DNA of 64,000 bases, from the NCBI GenBank assembly GCA_903851365.1, contig CAINOB010000064.1, forward strand, positions 62,001-126,000, in the 5' to 3' direction. The translations under genes were made by a program, and so were the position numbers. Source of the stretch: an uncultured Bacteroidota bacterium (GTDB lineage: Bacteria > Bacteroidota > Bacteroidia > Bacteroidales > UBA12481). A model generated the notes under the pieces. It worked only from the letters and a program-made list of their open reading frames with translations. It did no database searches and had not been told where the DNA came from. Shown piece by piece: positions 23,738 through 50,636 of the stretch. Positions within the stretch are counted from its first letter, which is position 1. Each line of letters opens with the position of its first letter.

Positions 23738-24757
23738 ATGCGACAAATCACACAGGAAGATATCGCAAGAAAATTAAATGTTACCAGGATCACTGTATCC
23801 AAGGCTTTACGGGATTATCCTGATATATCAGCAAATATGAAAAGGCGGGTGCTGGAAACCGCCGAAGAGATGGGCTATCTGCCCAACGAGATTGCTCAGC
23901 AACTGACTACCAGAACGACAAAGACTATTGGAGTAATTGTACCAGACCTTGAAAACAGCTTTTTCAGCCATGTAGTAAACAGCATTATCGATACTGCAAC
24001 CAGCCGGGGCTACCAGGTATTACTGGCGGTATCCAGGGAAAATGTTGAGCTGGAGAAAAAAAACATTAGGAACCTGATTGGCAAAAGAGTGGATGGATTA
24101 CTGGTTTGCCTTTCGCAGTTAACCTCTGATCCTGAATCCTTTGATTTCGTCAGGAAGATGGAAATTCCATTGGTCTTCTTCGATCGCGCGTTTACAGATT
24201 GTGGCTTCAGCAGTGTTACCTTTGATGATAAACAAGGAGTATCGATGGCTCTGGATAATTTGGTACAGGCGGGATATTCGAAAATCGCTCATTTTGCCGG
24301 ATATCAGACCACAAACATTGGTAAGGAAAGACTCGAAGGCTATAGGTTGGGATTGATGAAACACGGACTTTCCACGAGGGAAGACTGGATTATCGAAGGG
24401 GGATATGAGCTGATGGATGGATACCGGTCCTTCATGAAATTGGGTGAAACAGCTAGTTTTCCGGAGATCATACTGGCGGTAAACGATCGGGTGGCTTTAG
24501 GGGTTTATAAAGCCATTGCTGAGTTGGAACTGGCAGTGCCGGACGATATCGGTGTGGCAGGTTTCGGCTTTATGGAAACGGTTGAGATGTTTACGCCACC
24601 ACTGGCTATCATACATCAGGACCCCAGAGAAATGGGGCGTCTTGCGGCCGATCGCCTCATCGATGAGATTCAGCAGTTAGCCAAGCCTGGCGAAAAAATC
24701 AAACTTGAGGAGAGCTTCCATTGGAACAAATCTATTTTAAAAAATAAGAAGAAATGA
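23738..24757 (+). CDS. LacI-family transcriptional regulator
   Basis: This 339-residue repressor has the LacI helix-turn-helix at the N-terminus (ITQEDIARKLNVTRITVSKA), a hinge ending QQLTTRTTKTIGVIVPDLEN, and a periplasmic-binding-protein-like sugar domain (VDGLLVCLSQ, ILAVNDRVALGVYKAI, VAGFGFMETVEMFTPPL). It should bind an operator in the absence or presence of a sugar. It overlaps the next gene by 4 nt and is followed by three glycoside hydrolase genes, so it probably controls them. The effector is unknown. Confidence 0.93.
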   Translation: MRQITQEDIARKLNVTRITVSKALRDYPDISANMKRRVLETAEEMGYLPNEIAQQLTTRTTKTIGVIVPDLENSFFSHVVNSIIDTATSRGYQVLLAVSRENVELEKKNIRNLIGKRVDGLLVCLSQLTSDPESFDFVRKMEIPLVFFDRAFTDCGFSSVTFDDKQGVSMALDNLVQAGYSKIAHFAGYQTTNIGKERLEGYRLGLMKHGLSTREDWIIEGGYELMDGYRSFMKLGETASFPEIILAVNDRVALGVYKAIAELELAVPDDIGVAGFGFMETVEMFTPPLAIIHQDPREMGRLAADRLIDEIQQLAKPGEKIKLEESFHWNKSILKNKKK

Positions 24758-27289: not shown

Positions 27290-29332
27290 ATGAAAAGGAT
27301 TCAATTATTATTGATCGTTCTCTTTGGCGCTTTGACAGTGAACGCTCAGAAAACTCAACTCGGGACAGAGATATGGATCGAGCCAGGGTATACAAAAACT
27401 GATATCATAGGTTGGGTACGACAAGCTTCTGAAGCCGGATTTAAAGACATCAGGATATTCATGATGTGGACTCACGTTGAGCCTCAATTGGATAAATGGG
27501 ATTTTGAGGTATATGACTGGATGTTTGATGCCTGCGCCAAATATCATCTAAAATTACAGGTTACGTTAAATCCAAATCAGCCAGCCTGGCATTACGGGAA
27601 AGAGTATTGGGGATCGATCCATTCGCATGGTATTTTTTCGGATCCAAAAATGAAAGAAGCAGCGGCAAAATACATCAAGATGGTTGTTGAAAGATATAAA
27701 GACAGTCCGGCTTTGGATTATTGGTGGCTGATGAATGAGCCCTATCCCTCCGACAATGAAAGTCCTATTAAGCTGGTTGGTTTCAAGAAGGAAATGAAAG
27801 AGAAATATCACAACATTCAGGCGCTGAATAAATTATGGAACTCAAATTTCAATTCATTTGATGAAATCAAGGATATAAAGGCAATATATAGTGCAGAATG
27901 GGCAGCTGCAGTTCCTTATTACGACTGGACAAATTATTCAAATCACTTCCTCACCGATTTTCAACATTGGGTCAGGGATGAAGTTTACCGTTACGATAAC
28001 CGCCATCGCTTTACAACGAATCCGGGAGCCTATCTTTCCTTGTATCACCGGCAGGAGGCATCGGAATGGATGCCATTTTTAGATGCTTTCGGGCTCTCCA
28101 TCCATCCGATATGGCACTTCGATATGTTTACGAATGAGCAATATGACATGGGTGTTGCAGCCACCTGCGAATTGGGAAGAAGCGTAGCCAGCCCAAAGCC
28201 TTTCTGGGTAGCTGAGTTATCGGGCGGCAACAGCATTTTCTATTTTTGTCCATCGGCCAATGAAATAGCGCAGTGGACCTGGACAGGCATCGCGGAGGGA
28301 GCCCAAAAGATTATTTACTGGCTTCTGAATGCCCGGACATCTGGCAATGAATCTGGAGAATGGGCGCTTCTCGACTTTCAAAATGAACCTACAGACCGGT
28401 TAAACATGGCGATTAATATTGCCGGATGCTTAAATCAGGATTCCGTATTCTTCAATAAAGCAAAACCTCTCGAAAGTAATGTTTCGATCCTTCTCAACCG
28501 GGAATCAAGCCTCATCTATGCACGCAAAAAACAGGGGGAAGAGCACATTGAGGCCGTAATGAGCTGTTATCAGGCGCTGGCTGAAAAGGGAATATCAGTA
28601 AAATTGGAACAGACGCAAGATTTTCCGTGGGCGAAAAGTTCAGGGAAGGCAGTTATTTTGCCCAGTATGATTACCATCCCTGATATCCTGGTGGATTCCA
28701 TTAAGACATTCCTTCGCCATGGGAACAAGCTGATTGTTCTGGGACCGACAGGATATTATAATGAAAAGGAAGATTGCCAGTTTTTAAAATTTCCTTTCAA
28801 GGACGAATTTGGGGCTCAACCGAAAGAAATCCGGTCGATCCAAAACAGCTTTTCCATTTCCACCATGGATGGGAAATACCATTTTGAAGTCAGCAAAAAT
28901 TTTGGGATCATAAATAATCTCACTGCTACGTCCATTGCCCTATCTGAAGGCAATATTACCGGTATACGGAATAAAACCGGTAACAGCGAAGTTGTTTGGA
29001 TTCCTTCGAATATTGATTTGGGAGCCTGGAAGTCAGACAACTCGGAGTTGTCACAATTCCTGTCGGATGAGCTTATTCAATACACAAAGTCACAGCCCTT
29101 TGAATTTGTCAACAAAACCAAACATGTCGGAATGCGAACCCTCATCAACGGGCAATCCTATCTAACGGTGATCAATAATGGAGATGATGCAGCCAATATT
29201 ATCAGGCTGAAAAATAAATTAAACAAAAAGCCTTCCATTCTATTCTGCACCGATAAAACCAGAAAAGAGATCAATCCCGATCAGCAAATCATTTTGTCGC
29301 CGAAGGAGTGCCTGGTTATCCTTTGGAATTAA
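27290..29332 (+). CDS. GH42 beta-galactosidase, exported
   Basis: This 680-residue protein has a short signal peptide (LLLIVLFGALTVNAQ). The GH42 TIM barrel shows the acid/base Glu150 in WWLMNEP and the nucleophile Glu309 in WVAELSGGN, followed by the trimerisation-type domain (about 400-560, with ILPSMITIPDILVD) and a small C-terminal sandwich. Most GH42 enzymes act on beta-galactosides. An exported form is somewhat unusual and fits the other hydrolases in this operon. The preceding GH27 gene ends 1 nt before its start. Confidence 0.9.
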   Translation: MKRIQLLLIVLFGALTVNAQKTQLGTEIWIEPGYTKTDIIGWVRQASEAGFKDIRIFMMWTHVEPQLDKWDFEVYDWMFDACAKYHLKLQVTLNPNQPAWHYGKEYWGSIHSHGIFSDPKMKEAAAKYIKMVVERYKDSPALDYWWLMNEPYPSDNESPIKLVGFKKEMKEKYHNIQALNKLWNSNFNSFDEIKDIKAIYSAEWAAAVPYYDWTNYSNHFLTDFQHWVRDEVYRYDNRHRFTTNPGAYLSLYHRQEASEWMPFLDAFGLSIHPIWHFDMFTNEQYDMGVAATCELGRSVASPKPFWVAELSGGNSIFYFCPSANEIAQWTWTGIAEGAQKIIYWLLNARTSGNESGEWALLDFQNEPTDRLNMAINIAGCLNQDSVFFNKAKPLESNVSILLNRESSLIYARKKQGEEHIEAVMSCYQALAEKGISVKLEQTQDFPWAKSSGKAVILPSMITIPDILVDSIKTFLRHGNKLIVLGPTGYYNEKEDCQFLKFPFKDEFGAQPKEIRSIQNSFSISTMDGKYHFEVSKNFGIINNLTATSIALSEGNITGIRNKTGNSEVVWIPSNIDLGAWKSDNSELSQFLSDELIQYTKSQPFEFVNKTKHVGMRTLINGQSYLTVINNGDDAANIIRLKNKLNKKPSILFCTDKTRKEINPDQQIILSPKECLVILWN

Positions 29333-29364
29333 ATGTTCTGAGGGGAAAAGCTATATTAGCATGC

Positions 29365-32358
29365 ATGAAACCTATTACAATTTTTTGTCTGCTGTTTGCA
29401 GTTTTTTTAGCAAACTCAACAGCATTGTTTCCTGCAAATTACCAGGACAAAACCATTGATCAGGGAACCTGTCGAATTGAATCAAAGGTCCTGCGAGTCA
29501 GCCTCGACCGGTCATTTCCAGCCATTATTGATTATACGCGGATACCAGGCGGACAGATGTTCTATGGTCGTGAGGAAAAACAATCTCAGGTAAAGATTAA
29601 CGAAAAGCTCTATTCCCCGGTAATAACCTCTGTAAAAGCAAAAAATTCAGTGGATTACATCCTAAAGATCCCTGAAATTGATGTTGAGATAAATATCCGG
29701 ATTAAAGTAATCGATAATGTTGTGGATTTTGATGTCACGCGGATTTTCGAGAAAGGAAAATTCAAGGTAAGCACCTTTGAGATCCCTGATCATCAATTAC
29801 TTTCAGTTAGAAGCACTCAGCCAGGAGCTTCCTTTTCAGGAGCGAAAATGTATACGGCAGTCAAAGGCAGCGGGGATACATTCGCGCCATTGAGCGGTGT
29901 GACAGGGACAGACAGCATTCCAAAGGACTTTTTATACGGGATTGTAAATACAGATCAACTGGCAGCAAGCTTGTGGACCAACTCGGTGAATGAGAAATCG
30001 GACAATAACCGGATTCAGAAGCAAACCATCAGAAAGGATGGTTATTACCAGACCGGTATCTGGAGCGGACCCTGGATTTACAGGGCGCAGGGCATGACCT
30101 CAACGGATCCGTTACCCTCTTTAAAGATCATTATTACCAATGATAAAAATGGAGATCAAAAGGTTGATTGGCAGGATGGTGCGATTGCTTTCCGGGAGAT
30201 CATGAATAATCCGCAGGGCAGCGAAAAGATACCCGACCTGGTAGTTCAGAGGATTCCTATGAATTTTGCCAGTCAGGCAACCAATCCTTTCACAAAAACT
30301 CTCGATGAAACCAAGAGGATTTTTTTAAATACCGATGGATTGGGTCAATTTGTGATTCTAAAGGGTTATGGATCAGAAGGTCATGATTCCAAACACCCTG
30401 ATTATGGCGATATCGGCAAAAGGCAGGGCGGAGCTGCTGATATGGAGTTGCTTTGCAGGGAGGCACAGAAATATAATGCTTTTATGGGCGTGCATATCAA
30501 CGGAACCGAATCGTATCCGGAAGCCGTGGCATTTGATGATTCGCTGGTCAACAAAACCAAGAAAGGATGGGATTGGCTCGACGCGTCTTATTATATCAAT
30601 AAAAGGTATGATGCAACCTCCAATAACCGGATGCTGCGGCTTCAGTCGCTCAAGGACCAGGTGCCCTCACTTAACTTTATTTATTGTGATGTATGGTATG
30701 GACGCGGGAGCTGGGACAGCCGCAAGCTCGCCCGCGAAATCCACTCGCTGGGATTAACCCTGGCAACGGAGTTTCCAACTGATCATGAGAACGATGCTGT
30801 CTGGAACCATTGGGCGGTGGATTATAACTATGGCGGCAAAACTATCAAAGGCTTCAACAGCCAGATCGTCCGATTTATACGCAATCACCAGAAAGATACC
30901 TGGGTTGGCCGTCATCCGCTGCTGGGTGGAAGTGAAATGAAGGATTTTGAGGGATGGCAGGGGCGTATCGATTACGACAGTTGCATAAACATGACTTTCC
31001 AAACTGATTTACCTACAAAGTATCTTCAGCATTTTAAAATTATGCAGTGGAACGATGATAAGATCAGTTTCTCGGATCAAGTTATTTCTAAACTTATTCA
31101 GGGTGAGCGGGTGATCGAAAAAGACGGCAGAATTATATTGAAAGGGGATGCTTACCTCCTGCCCTGGAATCCACAAACCGAAGACAAACTTTACCACTGG
31201 AACCCTAAGGGCGGAACCGGCGTATGGGAGTTGCCAAAGGCCTGGAACAACCTGAATTCAGTGGAATTATACAAGCTCACCGATGAGGGACGGCAATTCA
31301 TCAGGAGCCTGAAAGTGGAAATGGGAAAAGTAACTATTGAGGCCGAAGCGGGCATTCCCTATGTGATTTACAAAAAGAAAGTCGCACCAAATTCCATGAT
31401 CGACTGGGGTGAAGGTTCCCTGGTAAAAGATCCGGGATTCAATAATGGTGATTTAAAATATTGGCGAGCTGAAGGGTCCGGAGCAACGACCAAACACAAT
31501 GAGAACGGACAATATGAGCTCGTCATGAACGGCCAGGCAGCGGTCAAGGTAAGCCAGACAATTACCGGTCTGACTCCGGGTTCCTGGTATGCTTCCGTTT
31601 ATGTTTCGACCGGTTCAGGTCGGAAAGCAACATTCGGTATCAACGATTATGGCGGTACTGAAGTCGCCGCCTATGCAACCAGCTCATTATGGGAAAATTA
31701 TATCGCCGCAGATTCCAAGCATGACTCCTTTATGCAGCGGATGTACGTGTTCTTTAATGTTCCGGAAGGCCAGACTACTGCCAACCTGTTTTTAAAGGCC
31801 GATGAAGGGACGTCGCAGGTTGTTTATGATGATGTTCGTGTTGCACGCACCCAGCATCCAATCAGTGCGGACAGTGCATTTTTCCGGGAAGATTTCGAGA
31901 ATATTCCGGATGGCCTGTATCCATTTGTCAAGGGACCTTCAGGCGGAGTGAATGATCCGCGAACGCACCTTTCGGAGCTTCACGCGCCCTATACGCAGAA
32001 AGGATGGAACGGAAAAGCCATTGATGATGTAATCGCCGGACACTGGTCGCTGAAGGCACATGGAGAGCCCACGGGATTATTGCTTCAAACGATCCCGCAA
32101 ACCATCCATTTCACAGCAGGAAAAACGTATAAAGTGACTTTCACCTATGAAGCAACCGGCTCTGATTACGCGCTGGCGGTGGGAGAAGGAACCTCCATAC
32201 AGTCCTCCTTTATTCTCAACTTTGCGAATGTACCGACGCTGGCGACGGTGACATTTATTGCCGGCAAAAGCGGAGATTCCTGGTTTGGGATCGAAAAACT
32301 CAATGAGAAAGAAACCGATTTGGTCATTGATGATTTAGTGGTTACCGAAAAAAACTAA
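29365..32358 (+). CDS. GH101 endo-alpha-N-acetylgalactosaminidase
   Basis: This secreted enzyme of about 997 residues (signal ITIFCLLFAVFLANSTA) should cleave the core-1 disaccharide Gal-beta-1,3-GalNAc from Ser/Thr of mucin-type O-glycoproteins. The catalytic domain carries GYGSEGHDSKHPDYGDIGKR, HINGTESYPEA, the nucleophile Asp442 in FIYCDVWYGRG and the acid/base Glu469 in TLATEFP, in the GH101 order. Two beta-sandwich carbohydrate-binding-type domains follow (about 650-820 and 830-990). The ATG at 29365 is chosen over an in-frame one at 29308 that overlaps the GH42 stop and would lack a signal peptide. GH101 is well known in Firmicutes and Actinobacteria and less common in Bacteroidota. Confidence 0.87.
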   Translation: MKPITIFCLLFAVFLANSTALFPANYQDKTIDQGTCRIESKVLRVSLDRSFPAIIDYTRIPGGQMFYGREEKQSQVKINEKLYSPVITSVKAKNSVDYILKIPEIDVEINIRIKVIDNVVDFDVTRIFEKGKFKVSTFEIPDHQLLSVRSTQPGASFSGAKMYTAVKGSGDTFAPLSGVTGTDSIPKDFLYGIVNTDQLAASLWTNSVNEKSDNNRIQKQTIRKDGYYQTGIWSGPWIYRAQGMTSTDPLPSLKIIITNDKNGDQKVDWQDGAIAFREIMNNPQGSEKIPDLVVQRIPMNFASQATNPFTKTLDETKRIFLNTDGLGQFVILKGYGSEGHDSKHPDYGDIGKRQGGAADMELLCREAQKYNAFMGVHINGTESYPEAVAFDDSLVNKTKKGWDWLDASYYINKRYDATSNNRMLRLQSLKDQVPSLNFIYCDVWYGRGSWDSRKLAREIHSLGLTLATEFPTDHENDAVWNHWAVDYNYGGKTIKGFNSQIVRFIRNHQKDTWVGRHPLLGGSEMKDFEGWQGRIDYDSCINMTFQTDLPTKYLQHFKIMQWNDDKISFSDQVISKLIQGERVIEKDGRIILKGDAYLLPWNPQTEDKLYHWNPKGGTGVWELPKAWNNLNSVELYKLTDEGRQFIRSLKVEMGKVTIEAEAGIPYVIYKKKVAPNSMIDWGEGSLVKDPGFNNGDLKYWRAEGSGATTKHNENGQYELVMNGQAAVKVSQTITGLTPGSWYASVYVSTGSGRKATFGINDYGGTEVAAYATSSLWENYIAADSKHDSFMQRMYVFFNVPEGQTTANLFLKADEGTSQVVYDDVRVARTQHPISADSAFFREDFENIPDGLYPFVKGPSGGVNDPRTHLSELHAPYTQKGWNGKAIDDVIAGHWSLKAHGEPTGLLLQTIPQTIHFTAGKTYKVTFTYEATGSDYALAVGEGTSIQSSFILNFANVPTLATVTFIAGKSGDSWFGIEKLNEKETDLVIDDLVVTEKN

Positions 32359-41424: not shown

Positions 41425-42645
41425 CTACCCTATTTCAAGTCCGAGGATAGCATCGAGGACCATTGCCAGTGAACCGACCACCGTATCATATTCCTTAAAT
41501 TCGGCTGGCAGGATTTTTACCTCACGGTTAGGAACCATCAGGCGGTTCCTAATACCGTCGGTGAGGGGATTCCAGAATTCATCGCCATTTAAGCTTAATC
41601 CCCCGCCAATGAAAATATGTGTCGGATCGAGCAAATGAATCAGATTTGCCACGCCGATACTCAGATATTCAATTGCATTCATACAGATAGACAGGGCATT
41701 GGGGTCGCCTCTCCGGCAGGCTTCAAAAACGGTTTTGGCCTCGATACGGTTAATAGGCACCTGACAAAGTTCAGAAATTGATCTGGCGGCGTCTGGATTT
41801 TGCCTGGCAGCCAGGGCAATACTCCTGCCTGAGGCAAGGGCTTCCAAACAACCTTTCCTGCCGCAATCACAAATAACCGGGCTCGTTGGGTCGACCGTCA
41901 TATGGCCAAACTCTCCTGAGAAACCCTGACCTCCATGGCTTAATTGTCCTTCAACAACAGTACCCGCCGCAATTCCGTGGCCAGCATTGACAATAATAAA
42001 ATTCCTCAGGTCCTTTCCCTGGCCAAAGGTTTTCTCTCCCAGGGCCATTAATCTTGTAGAGTTTTCAACAAAAATGGGCATCTTGATTCTTGCTTCAAGA
42101 TCCTCCTTGAATTTCACATTATTCCAATTGAAGGCGGAAGAAAAGGTCACCATCCTTTTCGCTTTATCCAATAAACCTGGAACCCCGATACCTACTCCAA
42201 TAACTTTATCAGTATCCAATCCTCTTTTTGCAAGAAGTCTTTCTGTGACAGCAACAACCTGGTTTACAACAGCCTGATATCCCTGTTCAATATCAGTCTG
42301 AAGTTGCACTTCCATTTCAATTTCAGCATCGAGATCCGCCATTACCCCACGGATCAGTGTTGCGCCAAGATCTATTCCAAGAACATGTTTTCCCTTTGAA
42401 TTAAATTCCAGAATCACGGGTGGGCGACCCCCGCTACTATCCCCAATTCTTCCATAGCGAACCAAATTCTCATCATTTACGAGCCGGTCCACTATCCGCG
42501 ATACGGTAGGTGCTGCCAATCCGGTGAATTTAACCAGCTCGGCCCTGCTAATCAAGTGTTTCTGCCGGATAAGCTGAAGAATGATCCTACGATTAACCCG
42601 GATCATCACCTCAGAATCAACCTTTTGGGTTACTCTTCTTACCAT
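41425..42645 (-). CDS. ROK-family transcriptional regulator (NagC/XylR type)
   Basis: This 406-residue protein has an N-terminal MarR-like helix-turn-helix (QKHLISRAELVKFTGLAAPT, then VSRIVDRLVND) and a ROK sugar-binding/kinase domain. The latter has GKHVLGIDLGATLIRGVM, HGIAAGTVVEGQLSHGGQG and the zinc motif CDCGRKGCLEALAS. It should repress or activate sugar genes depending on a sugar effector. It lies 140 nt upstream of susC, which has its own promoter, and downstream of the GH2 operon. It is probably the local regulator of either or both. Its own -7 element is at 42663-42670. Confidence 0.92.
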   Translation of the reverse strand: MVRRVTQKVDSEVMIRVNRRIILQLIRQKHLISRAELVKFTGLAAPTVSRIVDRLVNDENLVRYGRIGDSSGGRPPVILEFNSKGKHVLGIDLGATLIRGVMADLDAEIEMEVQLQTDIEQGYQAVVNQVVAVTERLLAKRGLDTDKVIGVGIGVPGLLDKAKRMVTFSSAFNWNNVKFKEDLEARIKMPIFVENSTRLMALGEKTFGQGKDLRNFIIVNAGHGIAAGTVVEGQLSHGGQGFSGEFGHMTVDPTSPVICDCGRKGCLEALASGRSIALAARQNPDAARSISELCQVPINRIEAKTVFEACRRGDPNALSICMNAIEYLSIGVANLIHLLDPTHIFIGGGLSLNGDEFWNPLTDGIRNRLMVPNREVKILPAEFKEYDTVVGSLAMVLDAILGLEIG

Positions 42646-42728: not shown

Positions 42729-45700
42729 CTATTGGTATTTATGAATCAAAGCTAATTTTGTGATCATTAAGTTTGGCCCGGACGTGCAATTGACAGAAAA
42801 GGATATTTTACCATCAAGGCAGTTCTCACGTGATACAGGCACAGAAATCCAGGTTTCCTCGGCCAGATTTCCAAGCGTTATTTCAGGGATATCTTCGCAT
42901 TGCAGGGTACCCTTTCGATTCTTTTTATCCGAGTCGGAAAAGCAAATCCGCAGTTCCCTTAAAGCTGGATTTTTCAATTCAATCTCGATTTTCATCTTTT
43001 TCCCAGTCCAGTATCCGCGCTTACTATCTTTCCAAACGTCACTGCAGTGAACTTTATAAGCAATTCCTTCATCAGCGATTGATTCATCCATATCGGCCGA
43101 CCAATCGGCAGTCGCTGATTCCTCCAGGTAATATCCCGCTGATACGTACAAACAGGAGGATTCAAAACCGGCTTCCTTTTTAAGGGGGATGAAAAGATCT
43201 GCGAAAGTTTCGCGCAGCCAGTCCTCAGCTACCTCCTGTCGAGGTTGAAAATCAGCCGTTTCCATATAATTCAGCAGACTTTTTTTGAATTGCCGGGTAG
43301 CAGGCCGTTTATCCAATCCATCGGTAATATTGTATCCACAGATGAGCATTTTCCCTCCAGCAGGGCTTTTAAATTCAAAAACGGTACCCAGCTTATTTCC
43401 GTAATGATAATCGTTAACCGGCTGCACTATTGGAAAGTAGTCCTTAGGCAGATTATTTAAAACGAATCCCCGGCCTCCCCGGCAGATATCTTTCCACTGC
43501 CAATCGATAGATTCCTGCGTCGGGAATAGTTTTAATGCCGGATGTTGGTTTTGAACCACAGCACCAGACACCTCGGTTTGCTGGCCTGTAAACCAGGTTG
43601 CCGACCAGAATACAGGGCCAAAGGAAGCATAGATTCTGTTCTTTACCGGGCCCAGTTTGTCGGCAGTTAAAAGCACTTTTCCCCCTTCATTAAAGCGGAC
43701 CAGAGCCTTACTGATATTATTGGTTACCAGAATATCGCCAGGAGTGGGATAATCCTTGGCTGTAGGAAACACCCAGATATCCCATTTGTTGGAGTATTCT
43801 GTTCCCGGGATTTCAAGCCTCAGGGTAAGTTTCCTCCCATAGGCACCTGACTCAAGTACCTGCCTGAACTCTCCGATCGAAGTAATAGTTCCCTGGATGA
43901 TATCGATTGCGGGGAATTTCTTGTCCAGGAGTATCCGGTTCTCCTCACAGATCATAAAGCGGACTTCTTTTTGCTTCAGCGTTTCAGGGCCATAATTTGC
44001 CACTTCAATCTTTGCTGAAAATTCCTCTCCATTTTCCCAAACGTACTTTTTGAATCTCAAAAGTGGTACGGTATGATTTCCATAACATCTGAATTCTTCG
44101 GGTGTAAGGAAATTTTTATTTTCATAAAAGGGATCGACCCAACCTATCAGGGCCTCGCCCTGTCCGGGATAATCGACCATGGCAAGTAACCCGTAACCGG
44201 CACTCATCCGTGTCTTTAAAGTTGCTTCAATCTCGCCTTTATAGTAGATGCGGTTCATATTTCCGGATGCCTTTTGAAATTTCCCATCCATTTTATCGAT
44301 TCCATTTATTTCGGCTAATCTTTTAAAATACAGTAAATTACGGGGTGATAAAACTCCATTATATTTATTGATTTCACTCCACAGAGGGTGTACAATGCTT
44401 TGTCCGGTTTCATGGCTGTACTCCGCCATTTTTTCCCGTCGAAAGGTCACATCATAATTATGCATGGCAGGGACCGTGTAATTGGAAGTATAATCCCAAT
44501 CGGTTCCATCATTCTGCATCACAAGACCTTTGCCACCATATTCCACAAAATCATCCGCGGTGGTGATATTATGCGCTGCCCCGGCGGCATACAAATGCCG
44601 TGAATCCCTATTTTTTATCTCTGCGATCCAGGAACCCATCTTATCGAAGTTTCCCCCCAGTTCGTTGCCGAATAATACCATAACCATGGAAGGATGGTTC
44701 CCATAAATCTTCAGGGCCTGAAGCATTTCGGAATGCACAAATCTATTAAGGGTATCGTTCTTATTGCCAATCAGGTCCTTAAGTCCCATCCAGCCATCCA
44801 TCCAAAAAAATTCAGACTGGATGTAAAGCCCAAGCTCATCAGCTGCTGTAAAAGCAGCCTCTGGCGGGCAAGAAGAATGAAACCTCACTGCATTCAGTCC
44901 ATGCCGCTTGTACAAACCAAAAACCTTTTTCCAATAATCCACCTCCATCGCCGGGTATCCCGTTTTGCCAAAAAACATGCCCTCATGGCTGTTCCGCACA
45001 AGAATTTTACGGCCATTAATTGTAAGGTGCTTATCAGCTGTTCCCAGATCTCGAAACCCAAAGGTGTTTATCAGGCATTGCGACTGATTCCCATATTTCG
45101 ATTCAGCAGTGAGTTCATACAGGTTGGGGGTGAACTCATCCCATGGTTTTGCTTCTTTCAGGTCAAAAAGAATGGTCTGTGTATAGTCCCCTGCAGGAAC
45201 GATAACCTTAACTTCTTTAACAGCAATCATTTTATTTGACTGCTTCTCTTTTATAGTACATTGGATCACGAGGGTTTGCTGATCGGAAAGTGCATTATTC
45301 AGCCTGACATCGACGACCACTCTTTTATCTGCAAATGATGGAGTTATCATGATATTCTCCATCGAGACGGCAGGTTTGGCAATCAGTTCAATTTTGCCAA
45401 CCGCGCCGTTCCATTGGGTTTGCATATGTGGGCAATATGAATGCGCCAGTGTACCCACCGGAAAGATCAGACGGTTGTCGATCATCACGGTGATGACATG
45501 CTTTCCCGGAGAGAGCTCGCCCAAAGTATGAACATGCGGTGTACTCAGAAAATCTATAGGTTCTCCTACCGATTTACCGTCAATCCAGACTTTACTTCTC
45601 CACAATACCCGCTCGAGCAAAAGGGAATAAATTTGTCCGGCTTTTTGTCCGGAGATAACAATATCCTTCTGATACCAGGCTTTCCCAATGTACTTGTGTA

Positions 45701-46004
45701 ACCGAGTCAGCATCCCAAAATCTGCATCAGGGGGATAACCAGGTAAAGTTTTCATTCCAAGCGGAGAAACAAACAGGGGAAAACAGTTTCCCAGGCCAAT
45801 TTCATCAGTACTTCCAGGCAACTGGATGCTACCTTTTAAGGACATTTTTTCCCAATGGTTGCGCTCACCGATACCCATCGAATCAGCGGCAAACCGCCAG
45901 CTCCCGCTGAGGCTAAATGTTGTGGATTCATTTTTTTGCGCGGATGCCCAACCGGTATCCAGCAACAGAAATACACACAAAACCAATTTAATCAGTCTGC
46001 ACAT
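42729..46004 (-). CDS. Glycoside hydrolase family 2 enzyme, exported
   Basis: This 1091-residue protein has a signal peptide (LVLCVFLLLDTGWASAQ). The GH2 layout is visible. The N-terminal sugar-binding domain (about 25-210) and Ig-like domain (about 215-320) are followed by the TIM barrel, with VRNSHEGMFFG and YKRHGLNAVRFHSSCPPEA, the acid/base Glu448 in VLFGNELGG and a likely nucleophile Glu532 in SHETGQ. A long C-terminal beta region follows (about 640-1091). GH2 covers beta-galactosidase, glucuronidase, mannosidase and others, and the substrate cannot be read from sequence. It is the last gene of the sugar operon starting at 49496. Confidence 0.88.
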   Translation of the reverse strand: MCRLIKLVLCVFLLLDTGWASAQKNESTTFSLSGSWRFAADSMGIGERNHWEKMSLKGSIQLPGSTDEIGLGNCFPLFVSPLGMKTLPGYPPDADFGMLTRLHKYIGKAWYQKDIVISGQKAGQIYSLLLERVLWRSKVWIDGKSVGEPIDFLSTPHVHTLGELSPGKHVITVMIDNRLIFPVGTLAHSYCPHMQTQWNGAVGKIELIAKPAVSMENIMITPSFADKRVVVDVRLNNALSDQQTLVIQCTIKEKQSNKMIAVKEVKVIVPAGDYTQTILFDLKEAKPWDEFTPNLYELTAESKYGNQSQCLINTFGFRDLGTADKHLTINGRKILVRNSHEGMFFGKTGYPAMEVDYWKKVFGLYKRHGLNAVRFHSSCPPEAAFTAADELGLYIQSEFFWMDGWMGLKDLIGNKNDTLNRFVHSEMLQALKIYGNHPSMVMVLFGNELGGNFDKMGSWIAEIKNRDSRHLYAAGAAHNITTADDFVEYGGKGLVMQNDGTDWDYTSNYTVPAMHNYDVTFRREKMAEYSHETGQSIVHPLWSEINKYNGVLSPRNLLYFKRLAEINGIDKMDGKFQKASGNMNRIYYKGEIEATLKTRMSAGYGLLAMVDYPGQGEALIGWVDPFYENKNFLTPEEFRCYGNHTVPLLRFKKYVWENGEEFSAKIEVANYGPETLKQKEVRFMICEENRILLDKKFPAIDIIQGTITSIGEFRQVLESGAYGRKLTLRLEIPGTEYSNKWDIWVFPTAKDYPTPGDILVTNNISKALVRFNEGGKVLLTADKLGPVKNRIYASFGPVFWSATWFTGQQTEVSGAVVQNQHPALKLFPTQESIDWQWKDICRGGRGFVLNNLPKDYFPIVQPVNDYHYGNKLGTVFEFKSPAGGKMLICGYNITDGLDKRPATRQFKKSLLNYMETADFQPRQEVAEDWLRETFADLFIPLKKEAGFESSCLYVSAGYYLEESATADWSADMDESIADEGIAYKVHCSDVWKDSKRGYWTGKKMKIEIELKNPALRELRICFSDSDKKNRKGTLQCEDIPEITLGNLAEETWISVPVSRENCLDGKISFSVNCTSGPNLMITKLALIHKYQ

Positions 46005-46032: not shown

Positions 46033-46881
46033 CTAGGACTTCATTCCAGCCAGCACTCCTTTAAAATACCCGATTGATTCAGCGATCCCGGGCAAGGGAT
46101 CAGACATATCCTTCGTGTATTCGAGACTAACTGTACCCTTATAGTTAACTTGCCTGAGAGCCTTAAAGAACTTTGGAAAATCGATAATCCCACGTCCGGC
46201 TTCCACACAGCCACCCGCTTTTTCAGGCTTATCTGTATCCCACACATGTAAATCGAAGATTCGCTCATGGTATTTTTTAACGGCAGCAACCGGATCAAGG
46301 CCCAGTCGGGTAGTGTGTCCGATATCGATGCAAAATCCGATACGCTTATCCAGGTTCTTAATGGCTTCCCAGGTATCATCGGGACCCGGATACAATTTTT
46401 GGTCGGGACCATGATTATGGATACCCAGGCGCATATCATATTCCCTGACCTTCTTTTCCACATAAGGCAGCATATTCACATCCGGTGCTCCCACGATCAG
46501 GGGTACACCAACCATCCTGGCATAAGCAAACGCCTGATCAACAGCAGCTTCGGTTTTCATGTAGATAACCCCAACACCGTAAGGTTTTACACCGAACGAT
46601 TCTGCCTTGGCCAGGAATGCGTTGATCGCCTCCTGGGTACTGTTCAGCGGCAGGTGCATATCCTTAACGCCAAGAAGACTCATGCCGCACCTCTTCATAT
46701 CAGCCAGGGCCTGATCGAGAGTCAACTGGGCAAAGGTATATCCGGCGATAGCCAACCGGAAGGAATCGGCCTTAATTGGCGTCGGAGGGGTTGTCCCCAT
46801 TCCTGAAGCCAGTACCGGCATTCCGGCGACCATTGCTCCGGCTCCGGTGACTTTGATAAAATCGCGTCTGTTGAATGTCAT
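46033..46881 (-). CDS. Tat-exported sugar phosphate isomerase/epimerase-like TIM-barrel protein
   Basis: This 282-residue protein starts with a twin-arginine signal (NRRDFIKVTGAGAMVAGMPV), so it is folded before export to the periplasm. The mature part is an AP-endonuclease-2/xylose-isomerase-like barrel: LLGVKDMHLPL, GVKPYGVGVIYM, MRLGIHNHGPDQKLYPGPDD, IGFCIDIGHTTRLGLDP, IFDLHVWDTDKPEK and TVSLEYTKDM. His, Asp and Glu at strand ends are the expected metal ligands. Such exported family members are frequent in Bacteroidota carbohydrate clusters, mostly without known reaction. It lies between the GH2 gene and the fusion gene in one operon. Confidence 0.85.
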   Translation of the reverse strand: MTFNRRDFIKVTGAGAMVAGMPVLASGMGTTPPTPIKADSFRLAIAGYTFAQLTLDQALADMKRCGMSLLGVKDMHLPLNSTQEAINAFLAKAESFGVKPYGVGVIYMKTEAAVDQAFAYARMVGVPLIVGAPDVNMLPYVEKKVREYDMRLGIHNHGPDQKLYPGPDDTWEAIKNLDKRIGFCIDIGHTTRLGLDPVAAVKKYHERIFDLHVWDTDKPEKAGGCVEAGRGIIDFPKFFKALRQVNYKGTVSLEYTKDMSDPLPGIAESIGYFKGVLAGMKS

Positions 46882-46896
46882 GGTAATTATTGGTTT

Positions 46897-48024
46897 TTAA
46901 TATCTTACCTTGATTTTTATTGCTCCCGGCACCTCTTTGTCTGATGCCACCATTACATACCCACCACCACTGCCCGAGGTAATGGAACCCGGATAATAAG
47001 GGAAATAGTTAGTCTCTAATTCATGCAAAACCCAATCGGGAACAGTGTAAGGCAGCATTTTACGCCAGGTCAGCAGCGTATTTTTCATTGATTTACCGAG
47101 ACCGTCGACGTCTTTCCGGAGGATACTCTCCCAGCACTGATCGCCCGCTTCACCGAGCTCCCTCACGGTTTCCGGGGTAAGGTGCTTATCAAGCAGCGGG
47201 TTATAACCTTCGGGCCTTGGTTTTAAGGGGACCAGATGGATAACACGGGACAGCCAGTCGCAGATTTCCGGATCTATTGTTGATTCGATTTTTTGGGGCC
47301 AGTAACCACCATTATAGCATAGCTGATTGCAACCTGATTTCAATAGCCCGATGTGATCCTGGCTCCCGGAAACATAAGTTTTTCCAAAGTTTTCTGCTCC
47401 GAAAAGTAGCCGGGCGTTTCGCATCGGATCGCCTGCCGGCAACTGGTTTCCCCACAATTCAATGGCCACGCTCCTCGAGCTGGTCGCCATGCCGCTCCGG
47501 TCGTTAAAATCAATGGTAGGCCATATTTGCGCAACTACCACAGATCCAGGATGCACCTCCGAAACCCAGGGTTGATCCATCCATCCGCCGGCAATACAAA
47601 TCCGATAAGGAAAACTGAGTTCCTTTTTTGTACCCGAACTCGAGCGGGCCGGCAACCCATCCTCTGGAATCCTTTCGAGAACAATATATTCCACCCCGTT
47701 CTTTTCACACAGGTCCTTTTTTTCGGGTGTGCTTCCATCAAAATTAACCACAAAAATATCAGGTTTCAGCAGGGCCATATCCTCAGCAAAATCAAGGATA
47801 CCCATACCCGATGAGATGATTGCCTGCTCAACATATCGGATGGAACCCACCATGAATTTGCGTTCCTCCTGTGAGAAATAAGGAGCTTTTCCTTTTAATT
47901 GAAGGATATTCTCATCGCGCCCTAAAAAAACGTACAATTTCCCATAAGCAGCCGCCGTTTTAAAAAATGCTATGTGACCTGCATGCAACAAGTCGTAGCA
48001 GCCGCTGACCATTACTTTTTTCAT
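46897..48024 (-). CDS. Fusion of cytidylyltransferase-like and GHMP-kinase-like domains
   Basis: This 375-residue cytoplasmic protein has two parts. Residues 1-137 are a nucleotidyltransferase of the HxGH class: MVSGCYDLLHAGHIAFF with His14-x-x-His17, EERKFMVGSIRYV, and ISST-like ARSSSGTKKE. Residues 139-375 resemble GHMP sugar kinases: RICIAGGWMDQPW, a shortened and degenerate ATP loop RSGMATSSRS (176-185), SGSQDHIGLLKSGCNQL like the GxQDQ motif of fucose/heptose kinases, and SGSGGGYVMVASD as motif 3. Together they could phosphorylate and nucleotide-activate a sugar. The kinase part is about 80-100 residues shorter than usual, so it may be altered. It overlaps the upstream gene by 4 nt. Confidence 0.75.
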   Translation of the reverse strand: MKKVMVSGCYDLLHAGHIAFFKTAAAYGKLYVFLGRDENILQLKGKAPYFSQEERKFMVGSIRYVEQAIISSGMGILDFAEDMALLKPDIFVVNFDGSTPEKKDLCEKNGVEYIVLERIPEDGLPARSSSGTKKELSFPYRICIAGGWMDQPWVSEVHPGSVVVAQIWPTIDFNDRSGMATSSRSVAIELWGNQLPAGDPMRNARLLFGAENFGKTYVSGSQDHIGLLKSGCNQLCYNGGYWPQKIESTIDPEICDWLSRVIHLVPLKPRPEGYNPLLDKHLTPETVRELGEAGDQCWESILRKDVDGLGKSMKNTLLTWRKMLPYTVPDWVLHELETNYFPYYPGSITSGSGGGYVMVASDKEVPGAIKIKVRY

Positions 48025-49496
48025 TCAGCCTCCGCCGTTATTACTGATTTTGCTGTTACACTGACATCCACGAAGCTGTGGATATTTCCGGTGGCATCCT
48101 TAAAATGTTCGGAAGGCATTGATTTACCATTGACTTTTATGTGTTCGAAAGATCCCTGAAAGGTTGCCCTCCATGTGAAACTTTTATCTGACTTATTTGC
48201 AAAAATGGTTTTTGAAGGAGAATCATGACTGACAGATATCAATCCCGAAAAAACAGGAATATTCTCCACCGTAACACCGATTTTTTCATTTGCCAGCCTT
48301 GGACAAGTTGCGATCCTGTTTTCTGCTGCCGATGGCTCAACGCCCATCAGTCCACGGACGATTCCCTCAATAGCCCCACAGGAGGCTTCAGGATACATCC
48401 TTCGCTTATCCCTGAAAATTTTAACCAGGTAATCATATCCTTCCGTGTTTAATCCATATCTGTAAAACAACATTGGCAGGTAGGATAATACTTCCACCTG
48501 GGAATTGCTGATATCGTGCAATGATTTAATAATCCGGGCAGGATCTTCAATGACATTATACCAGAGCAGAAATTCACTGTTACTGATGCCCCCGGTAGAG
48601 AACTTTTTATCGGTTTTATAAAAGGCGGAATAGGATTGTGAACCCTGATTCCACCAAAGTGAGTCGATCAGGTGCCGGTATTCGGCAGCTTTGCCGGCAT
48701 ATCTTTCGCTCAGGCCATTTTCTCCACGCAGCTTGAGGATCTTTGAATAGGTTTTAAAACCATTATAAATCATGCCGAGCAGATCACCGCTGACTGCCAG
48801 ATTATCCTGCGATTCGTCGTAGGAAGGAATTCCCCTGGCCTGCTTGTACTTTACGGTTTCCGGCTTGAGATTCATCATTCCGGGGCGATCCATAATTTTT
48901 TCGGCTTGCAATTGCCATTTTTCGACGTACTGATTCAGTGTGAGTTGAAAAAATTTATCGAATGCCTGATCATTGATATAGGATTTGTTACCCGACCATT
49001 CATACAATTTATAGGAGGCATCGATAATATCGAAATTTGCATTCAGATTGTACCAAAAATCCTTATCAGAGGCATAGTCTACAGGTGCCGGCTTGTTATA
49101 CCTGTTGATTTCCCAGTAGGAGCAAAAGTCCTTTTCTTCGGATATGTTTTCAACAAATTTCCTGAACATATTCAGATTCTGCTTACCCTGCCAAAGGATT
49201 TCGGCCCCGATACACTGATGAGAAACATCGCGGATGCAGAATGCCTCCCGCTTAGGCAGCGCGGCTTCGTACCAGGGTCCCACCGGATCGCTGTCTTTTC
49301 CGACATAACCATTGGAGGTCTTTCTTGCCCAGTTGAAAATCTTGACAAGCACCGTGTCGGATGAAGAGATGCGAATAGTGTCGCTGCCCGCAAAAAGAAG
49401 GTCATTCGATGAGCTGGTTTTACAGGAAGGGAACAAGGCAATTCCGAGGAAGATCAGCATCCAGCAAGTGATTTTATTGGGATAGAGCTTTTTCAT
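48021..49496 (-). CDS. Lipoprotein of six-hairpin-glycosidase-like type
   Basis: This protein of about 491 residues has a lipoprotein signal (CWMLIFLGIALFPSC). The middle is rich in aromatic helices with KREAFCIRDVSHQCIGAEIL, DFWYNLNANFDIIDASYKLY, NLAVSGDLLGMIYNGF and SNSEFLLWYNVIED, which resembles the (alpha/alpha)6 barrel of glycoside hydrolases, then a beta-sandwich C-terminus (VENIPVFSGLISVSHDSP). The exact family cannot be assigned by eye. The ATG at 49496 is chosen because the upstream one lacks a proper signal. It is the first gene of the operon ending with GH2. Confidence 0.65.
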   Translation of the reverse strand: MKKLYPNKITCWMLIFLGIALFPSCKTSSSNDLLFAGSDTIRISSSDTVLVKIFNWARKTSNGYVGKDSDPVGPWYEAALPKREAFCIRDVSHQCIGAEILWQGKQNLNMFRKFVENISEEKDFCSYWEINRYNKPAPVDYASDKDFWYNLNANFDIIDASYKLYEWSGNKSYINDQAFDKFFQLTLNQYVEKWQLQAEKIMDRPGMMNLKPETVKYKQARGIPSYDESQDNLAVSGDLLGMIYNGFKTYSKILKLRGENGLSERYAGKAAEYRHLIDSLWWNQGSQSYSAFYKTDKKFSTGGISNSEFLLWYNVIEDPARIIKSLHDISNSQVEVLSYLPMLFYRYGLNTEGYDYLVKIFRDKRRMYPEASCGAIEGIVRGLMGVEPSAAENRIATCPRLANEKIGVTVENIPVFSGLISVSHDSPSKTIFANKSDKSFTWRATFQGSFEHIKVNGKSMPSEHFKDATGNIHSFVDVSVTAKSVITAEAE

Positions 49497-49595
49497 GGTG
49501 GCAAAATGAAAGTTTATCAAATAGATGGCGACTTAAAATTGTTTTCCAATCTGAGTTGTTAAAATTACAATCTGATCGATTTACAAAGGACTAAT

Positions 49596-49823: not shown

Positions 49824-50636
49824 TTATTGTTTTTGCGAAAGTGCCGCTCCAATTGCAGTTGCGTAAGCTGCATGGTCAGGATAGATAAAAGTAAGGTTGT
49901 AAATATCAGCGATTGCATCCAATATTCTTTTACCGATGGAGACGTTGCTGGCGGTTCCGGTCACCACGATAGTATTCATGTTTCTGCTTTTTGCCGCGAA
50001 CGCTGAGACTGTACCGATCACCTGATAAACCATATTAAAGATACCCAGGGCAATATCTTCGTCTTTCGCGCTATCCAGCAATTTGCCAAAATTCGACGCG
50101 GTCATCTCTTTTTTCAGAAAACCAATATCTGAATCGGCTATATCGCCAATCAGGAGGTCAACCTGGCCGATGCGGCCTCTGCCCGCCATGTCAAAAAGCA
50201 CATCAAGATCAGAAATTTTAAGTATGGCTTTTGCCAGTCCAAGGATGGTGCCCCCACCAACTGCTGTGCCGCCGATATGGATGATGTTGCCCTCATGTGC
50301 TTCCACAAGAGCTGTTCCCGTGCCGAGATTGGCAATGATCAAATCAGCTTTTCCTGAAAGGTACATGCCACCCAGTCCGATTGCCTGGATTTCCTCGATT
50401 TTTGTTGTTGGGATGCCGAATAATTGGCCCCCGATACCGGAAGCACCAGCGCCTGTAAGTACTACATTTTTTACCGACGATATTTCCAGATGGTTGTCCA
50501 TCAGAATTTTCCCCAAAGCTCCGGTAGCGGAGGTAATTGGATCAAATGCCTTGGTTATCTGTGTTTTAAACGAAGCGTCAGGATAAAAAACCACACTTTT
50601 GGTAGTGGTACTTCCGATATCAATCCCTATGACCAT
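49824..50636 (-). CDS. Type II pantothenate kinase-like ATPase (BadF/BadG fold)
   Basis: This 270-residue ASKHA-fold kinase has the phosphate-1 loop GIDIGSTTTKSVVF at 4-17, LTGAGASGIGGQLFG, the TKIEEIQAIGLGG segment and NLGTGTALV. These match CoaW-type pantothenate kinases, which make phosphopantothenate for coenzyme A. It lies 29 nt downstream of araA, so it is in the arabinose operon, where a ribulokinase would be expected instead. By sequence it is not a FGGY kinase. Whether it has a role in sugar metabolism is unclear. Confidence 0.8.
   Translation of the reverse strand: MVIGIDIGSTTTKSVVFYPDASFKTQITKAFDPITSATGALGKILMDNHLEISSVKNVVLTGAGASGIGGQLFGIPTTKIEEIQAIGLGGMYLSGKADLIIANLGTGTALVEAHEGNIIHIGGTAVGGGTILGLAKAILKISDLDVLFDMAGRGRIGQVDLLIGDIADSDIGFLKKEMTASNFGKLLDSAKDEDIALGIFNMVYQVIGTVSAFAAKSRNMNTIVVTGTASNVSIGKRILDAIADIYNLTFIYPDHAAYATAIGAALSQKQ

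Follow-up and report, generated by a model that had tools for sequence, protein, structure and literature searches.

The DNA analysed here, a stretch of 64,000 nucleotides (the window), contains a gene for a 375-residue protein that joins an HxGH nucleotidyltransferase to a compact GHMP kinase. Judged from its sequence, the protein very probably is a real kinase and nucleotidyltransferase, acting in good likelihood on a sugar of the L-galacto type. On balance, it is predicted to be an L-galactose kinase and L-galactose-1-phosphate guanylyltransferase, which would feed a GDP-mannose 3,5-epimerase (GME) also encoded in the window. Bifunctional kinase/nucleotidyltransferases are a known kind of enzyme; the pairing of an HxGH with a GHMP domain, and a deletion in the latter, appear to be new.

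Table 1. Position of the fusion gene, of its domains and motifs, and of neighbouring genes in the window
Feature	Position	Strand	Remarks
Whole fusion gene, type i	46897..48024	-	375 codons and stop, one open frame
HxGH nucleotidyltransferase domain, about residues 1-137	47614..48024	-	Pfam PF01467; structure match 1coz
HAGH (14-17), HxGH nucleotide-binding motif	47974..47985	-	His14, Gly16 and His17 invariant in 72 sequences
RSSS (127-130)	47635..47646	-	Probably corresponds to the RTEGISTT-type loop in HxGH enzymes
Compact GHMP-kinase domain, residues 138-375	46900..47613	-	Profile, Pfam relatives, predicted structure
Motif 1, RICIAGGWMDQP (141-152)	47569..47604	-	Arg141, Trp148, Asp150 = FKP Arg592, Trp599, Asp601; invariant in 72
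P-loop, RSGMATSS (176-183)	47476..47499	-	= FKP GSGLGTSS, matched manually; Ser182 invariant in 72
GSQD (220-223)	47356..47367	-	Gly220, Gln222, Asp223 = FKP Gly759, Gln761, general base Asp762
SGSGGG (350-355), GHMP motif 3	46960..46977	-	GAGGGG in type ii
GME homologue, 331 aa	24754..25749	+	2c59, E 1.9e-97; 21 kb from the fusion
LacI-family regulator	23738..24757	+	Next to GME/fusion at most loci of type i
Putative hydrolase, weakly MGH1-like	48021..49520	-	Pfam match below cut-off
Xylose-isomerase-like TIM-barrel protein	46033..46881	-	Directly downstream of the fusion; weak Tat-signal match
GH2 exo-beta-1,4-galactosidase-like enzyme	42729..46004	-	Same strand as the fusion
ROK-family regulator	41425..42645	-	Homologue directly downstream of GME-GHMP in genome G006

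The fusion gene

The fusion is read from the minus strand in a frame free of internal stops, and over this interval the opposite strand is stop-rich; on the strand the original prediction had to be corrected. Its description of the protein as an HxGH nucleotidyltransferase fused to a compact GHMP kinase agrees with Pfam, with the profile searches and with the structure match, and a search of other genomes recovered the same domain order many times, which rules out a frameshift or assembly artefact. The stop codon of the upstream hydrolase gene overlaps the ATG of the fusion by 4 bases; further upstream are found a type-II-pantothenate-kinase-like gene, an L-arabinose isomerase and a sodium/solute symporter. 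The first of these, located between the isomerase and the hydrolase (49824-50636), encodes a 270-residue protein that is also BadF-like. With the curated models searched, the fusion is recognized as no more than a generic cytidylyltransferase-like protein, and the GME as an Fcl-like epimerase below threshold.

The nucleotidyltransferase half

The first domain matches CTP_transf_like (PF01467) above the cut-off, with an E-value of 8e-10, and residues 1-136 of the predicted structure superimpose on the glycerol-3-phosphate cytidylyltransferase (GCT) 1coz with a Z-score of 17.8. The N-terminal domain of fucose pyrophosphorylase, PF07959, has no match anywhere in the organism's own genome. In sequence, the domain comes closest to glycerol-3-phosphate and ethanolamine-phosphate cytidylyltransferases, and its nearest solved relatives use CTP or ATP, which counts against GTP as the coupled nucleotide; to our knowledge, no HxGH enzyme is a sugar-1-phosphate guanylyltransferase. 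The use of GTP is suggested by the neighbouring genes.

The kinase half

Pfam finds no match in the kinase half of the window protein, which is not among the 11 of 14 relatives matched by GHMP_kinases_C. The family profile retrieves the FKP fucokinase 9iip with an E-value of 6e-11, and the kinase half alone does so at 9.5e-12. In the structure model of the fusion (pLDDT 91.5), residues 136-375 give Z-scores of 17-22 to GHMP kinases, which identifies the GHMP fold; the value is 22.1 for the heptose kinase WcbL and 20.3 for FKP, the latter having the highest identity, 22%, among the kinases listed in the structure search. All three GHMP motifs are present (RICIAGGWMD, RSGMATSS and SGSGGG).

The sugar site of FKP is formed by Arg592, Trp599, Asp601, Thr602, Gly759, Gln761 and Asp762; the W599A and D601A mutations lower kcat/Km more than 3000-fold and D762A is inactive (PMC11982464). 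The equivalents of six of these residues, R141, W148, D150, G220, Q222 and D223, are invariant in 72 of 72 members, while Thr602 is replaced by Gln in the fusion; the position of FKP Glu751 holds Glu or Asp in all 72 sequences. In the heptose kinases 3k85, 4n3o and 4usk a Gly occupies the position of the motif-1 Trp.

As originally noted, the kinase is shortened. Most of the loss is a single deletion that follows motif 1 and precedes the P-loop: the distance from Trp148 to Ser177 of the loop is about 28 residues, compared with about 116 in FKP. Since the deletion lies next to the P-loop, MAFFT placed the loop wrongly, and it was aligned to FKP by hand. The loop had been described as degenerate; however, it retains the SGxxTSS pattern. 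Doubts about the ATP site were thus half justified, as the triphosphate loop and the catalytic residues are kept, but the adenine contacts of FKP (Asp644, Met645, Pro666 and Ile669; 644-669) fall, according to the alignment, inside the deleted segment. This loss makes ATP less certain as the phosphate donor, and a different donor, GTP or PPi, may be considered.

Two types of fusion

A scan of species-representative genomes yielded 526 relatives; the best 80 of these, which were examined, come from Bacteroidota, Ignavibacteriota, Chlorobiota, Chloroflexota, Planctomycetota, Verrucomicrobiota and KSB1. In the tree, the sequences resembling the window protein form one clade (type i; 23 rows, support 100/100) apart from type ii, to which they are about 45% identical; the "noGME" colour of L085 in this tree denotes a genome that lay outside the GME search. 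The organism's own genome contains a second copy, of type ii, 44% identical to the first. The two types show fixed differences in or beside the conserved kinase motifs, at positions 143, 164, 320, 324, 327, 350 and 351, and type ii reads RSTT at positions 127-130. Two more distant fusions of the same domain order, L014:1405-2754 and L035:952-2694, possibly represent a third branch; the former, of 449 residues, carries the motifs GGWTD and GRQDQ, and its deletion is a little smaller. FKP occurs in 1 of 43 fusion carriers and in 3 of 37 non-carriers, numbers too small to argue by phyletic complementarity for a replacement of FKP.

Genes around type i

GME is found directly upstream of the fusion in 18 of 23 type-i loci; in the window, the LacI-GME pair is on the opposite strand, 21 kb from the fusion, which counts against a joint role. 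The best GDP-fucose synthase among the solved structures matches the window GME at only 3e-26 (compare 2c59 in Table 1). The best NCBIfam model for this gene is GDP-L-fucose synthase, below cut-off, and the gene is easily misannotated. The equivalents of Ser143, Cys145, Tyr174, Lys178, Asn203, Lys217 and Arg243 are present in 21 of 21 aligned GME copies, and so is the Cys/Lys pair by which GME differs from GDP-fucose synthase. At Arg306, which is Lys in GDP-fucose synthase, the window GME reads VRGRN as does the Arabidopsis enzyme; the count over the 21 copies covers the Arg two places earlier.

With a threshold of at least 45% identity, GME was detected in 24 of 25 type-i genomes, compared with 3 of 30 that carry type ii only and none of 25 non-carriers (3/55 altogether); the Fisher p of 4e-16 is optimistic, since related genomes are not independent. 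The three exceptions outside type i include G137 and G382, where GME lies beside a type-ii-like fusion. The type-i genome G389 has no GME at this threshold, which again counts against the proposed partnership.

The other neighbours of type i include GH29 (9 proteins), MFS transporters (7; those checked are FucP), ManC (5), mutarotase (5) and GH95 (4); no glycosyltransferase is found among the 25 commonest neighbour families. FucP, GH29 and GH95 are also compatible with L-fucose and in this respect weigh against L-galactose. The Thr/His marker of GH95 L-galactosidases is only suggestive as a test between the two sugars: beside type i it reads Thr in three cases and His in one, and Thr occurs also in two type-ii loci. 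Downstream of the LacI-GME pair, the window encodes a GH101 endo-alpha-N-acetylgalactosaminidase (29308-32358), beside GH42 and GH27.

Genomes of the same genus contain the GHMP domain as a separate gene of 237-239 aa (L004:1519-2238, L005:1510-2220 and L081:2984-3694), the ATG of which overlaps the stop of GME, an arrangement that speaks for the proposed reading. At these loci the nucleotidyltransferase domain is absent, a further point against the proposed coupling.

Genes around type ii

The neighbours of type ii include FucP, a GDP-mannose dehydratase (gmd), an RmlD-like/Fcl protein, a mutarotase and a GH29 alpha-L-fucosidase; the type-ii copy of the organism's own genome adjoins gmd and an fcl homologue. 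With only 228 codons, the latter (L143:7854-8540) is possibly a GDP-fucose synthase that has been truncated or split. In three genomes (L086:7341-9137, L098:7353-9137 and L120:7362-9137) an L-rhamnose/L-fucose-type mutarotase, the HxGH nucleotidyltransferase and the GHMP kinase form a single chain of 592-599 residues. From its neighbours, type ii probably converts L-fucose to NDP-L-fucose. Tannerella forsythia is without Fkp, and its delta-fcl mutant lost L-fucose from the O-glycan (PMC8698959); this result counts against a fucose role of type ii, with a weight that depends on the supply of free fucose in that study.

Proposed pathway and alternatives

The conserved FKP residues, the co-occurrence with GME and the neighbours of type i together support L-galactose, which is probably the substrate of this type; FKP itself phosphorylates L-galactose, with a Km of 3.3 mM compared with 34 uM for L-fucose (about 100-fold), and yields GDP-L-galactose (PMC11982464). 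In the proposed pathway, the GHMP half would phosphorylate L-galactose at the C1 hydroxyl, with Asp223 as general base, and the HxGH half would couple the sugar-1-phosphate to a nucleoside triphosphate, GTP from the context, with release of PPi. GME would then interconvert GDP-L-galactose and GDP-D-mannose. If the flux is catabolic, a direction to which we give slightly less than an even chance, ManC running backwards with PPi would produce mannose-1-phosphate and regenerate GTP. The net reaction, L-galactose + ATP -> D-mannose-1-P + ADP, would amount to a Leloir-like cycle that handles an L-sugar; with L-fucose, the first two steps would be performed by the relatives of type ii. The complete scheme, namely catabolism through fusion, GME and ManC, with GTP and PPi recycled, a kinase donor that is possibly GTP or PPi, and an HxGH enzyme as the GDP-sugar pyrophosphorylase, is advanced only tentatively. 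A salvage role of the protein, turning released sugar into nucleotide sugar as originally suggested, is supported by the GH29/GH95, FucP, mutarotase, ManC and GME neighbours and by the mutarotase fusions.

The same transporters, glycosidases and L-fucose-type mutarotase around both types, together with the conserved Trp that stacks on C4-C5-C6 of fucose, would also suit two L-fucose enzymes, both leading to GDP-L-fucose. The GME-like protein would then have a separate job or act on GDP-L-fucose, its 3,5-epimerisation giving GDP-D-rhamnose. This is unlikely, as GME is characteristic of type i and very rare outside it, ManC occurs in five type-i neighbourhoods, fixed differences set the two types apart in or beside the kinase motifs, and the organism's own genome retains one copy of each. 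Similarly unlikely is a biosynthetic direction, in which a cell-surface glycan would receive GDP-L-galactose that GME has formed out of GDP-mannose, with the fusion limited to recycling free L-galactose. Bacterial GME has been assigned to LPS or antibiotic synthesis (PMC6678494, PMC8787198) and ManC normally makes GDP-mannose; however, type i is surrounded by glycosidases, a sugar importer, a mutarotase and a LacI regulator, with the commonest neighbour families devoid of glycosyltransferases.

A CDP-sugar or ADP-sugar, as made by the closest solved relatives of the HxGH half, is a rather improbable product. The cytidylyltransferases at the top of the sequence matches favour it, as does the use of ATP by HldE and HldC, but the partner genes GME, ManC, gmd and fcl handle GDP-sugars. 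In addition, a literature search, with most subscription journals outside its scope, returned no CDP-L-fucose product of such an enzyme. The search also gave nothing relevant on an L-galactokinase, on CDP-fucose in general or on a fused enzyme of this kind, a negative result of little weight. Still less credit is given to a kinase half that is inactive and serves as a sugar-binding regulator of the nucleotidyltransferase, close to the altered sensor that the original prediction had considered: the adenine-contact segment is deleted and non-kinases of the GHMP fold exist (ForT, 6yqq, Z 15.2), but invariant equivalents of Arg592, Asp601 and Asp762, a Glu751 site that is always acidic (Glu or Asp) and a preserved triphosphate loop speak against the sensor.

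Comparison with known systems

The original prediction had placed the fusion in the logic of FKP or HldE with a different pairing, and the FKP sugar-binding and catalytic residues of the kinase half bear this out. FKP of Bacteroides fragilis (949 aa) is a bifunctional L-fucokinase/GDP-L-fucose pyrophosphorylase with the same domain order, nucleotidyltransferase then GHMP kinase, and the same fucose-binding Arg/Trp/Asp/Gln/Asp set. Unlike the HxGH domain, however, its nucleotidyltransferase is an alpha/beta domain with a beta-helix (PF07959), and the kinase of the fusion is about 88 residues shorter ahead of the P-loop. A 2025 phylogeny of FKP proposes one fusion event; a term search of that article returned no HxGH version (PMC12732313).

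HldE, a heptose kinase/adenylyltransferase, also joins an HxGH nucleotidyltransferase to a sugar kinase, but its kinase has the PfkB fold, the domain order is opposite and the nucleotidyltransferase is ATP-dependent; the fusion scores 32 bits with the curated HldE model (cut-off 521). TagD/GCT shares the HxGH fold, with 37% identity over the domain (2b7l), but TagD has a single domain and the fusion reaches 42 vs 165 bits, below the curated cut-off. GHMP heptose kinases (WcbL 4usk, 3k85) have the fold of the kinase half (Z 18-22), but these enzymes, 4n3o included, contain the complete adenine segment besides the motif-1 Gly and no nucleotidyltransferase domain.

The window GME is about 48% identical to the Arabidopsis enzyme and keeps the catalytic residues; plant GME and MfGM35E are known systems, linked, as known GMEs are, to ascorbate or LPS synthesis, whereas the GME of type i is linked to sugar import and glycosidases. 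Known bacterial catabolism of L-galactose, the presumed substrate of type i as well, is oxidative and proceeds via D-tagaturonate, in Phocaeicola vulgatus and with Lgu of Luteolibacter (PMC12632266), without a nucleotide sugar.

Implications

If the proposed reading is correct, bifunctional sugar activation of the FKP type has at least two origins, in which unrelated nucleotidyltransferases were recruited, and the preparation of GDP-L-galactose or GDP-L-fucose from the free sugar would gain a useful tool of 375 residues next to FKP with its 949. Bacterial GME would gain a salvage or catabolic role besides those proposed in LPS and antibiotic synthesis, and its partnership with the fusion would imply a previously undescribed conversion of L-galactose to mannose. 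Bacteria would also have a non-oxidative use of L-galactose from plant and algal glycans; the fusion and GME genes are carried by many genomes.
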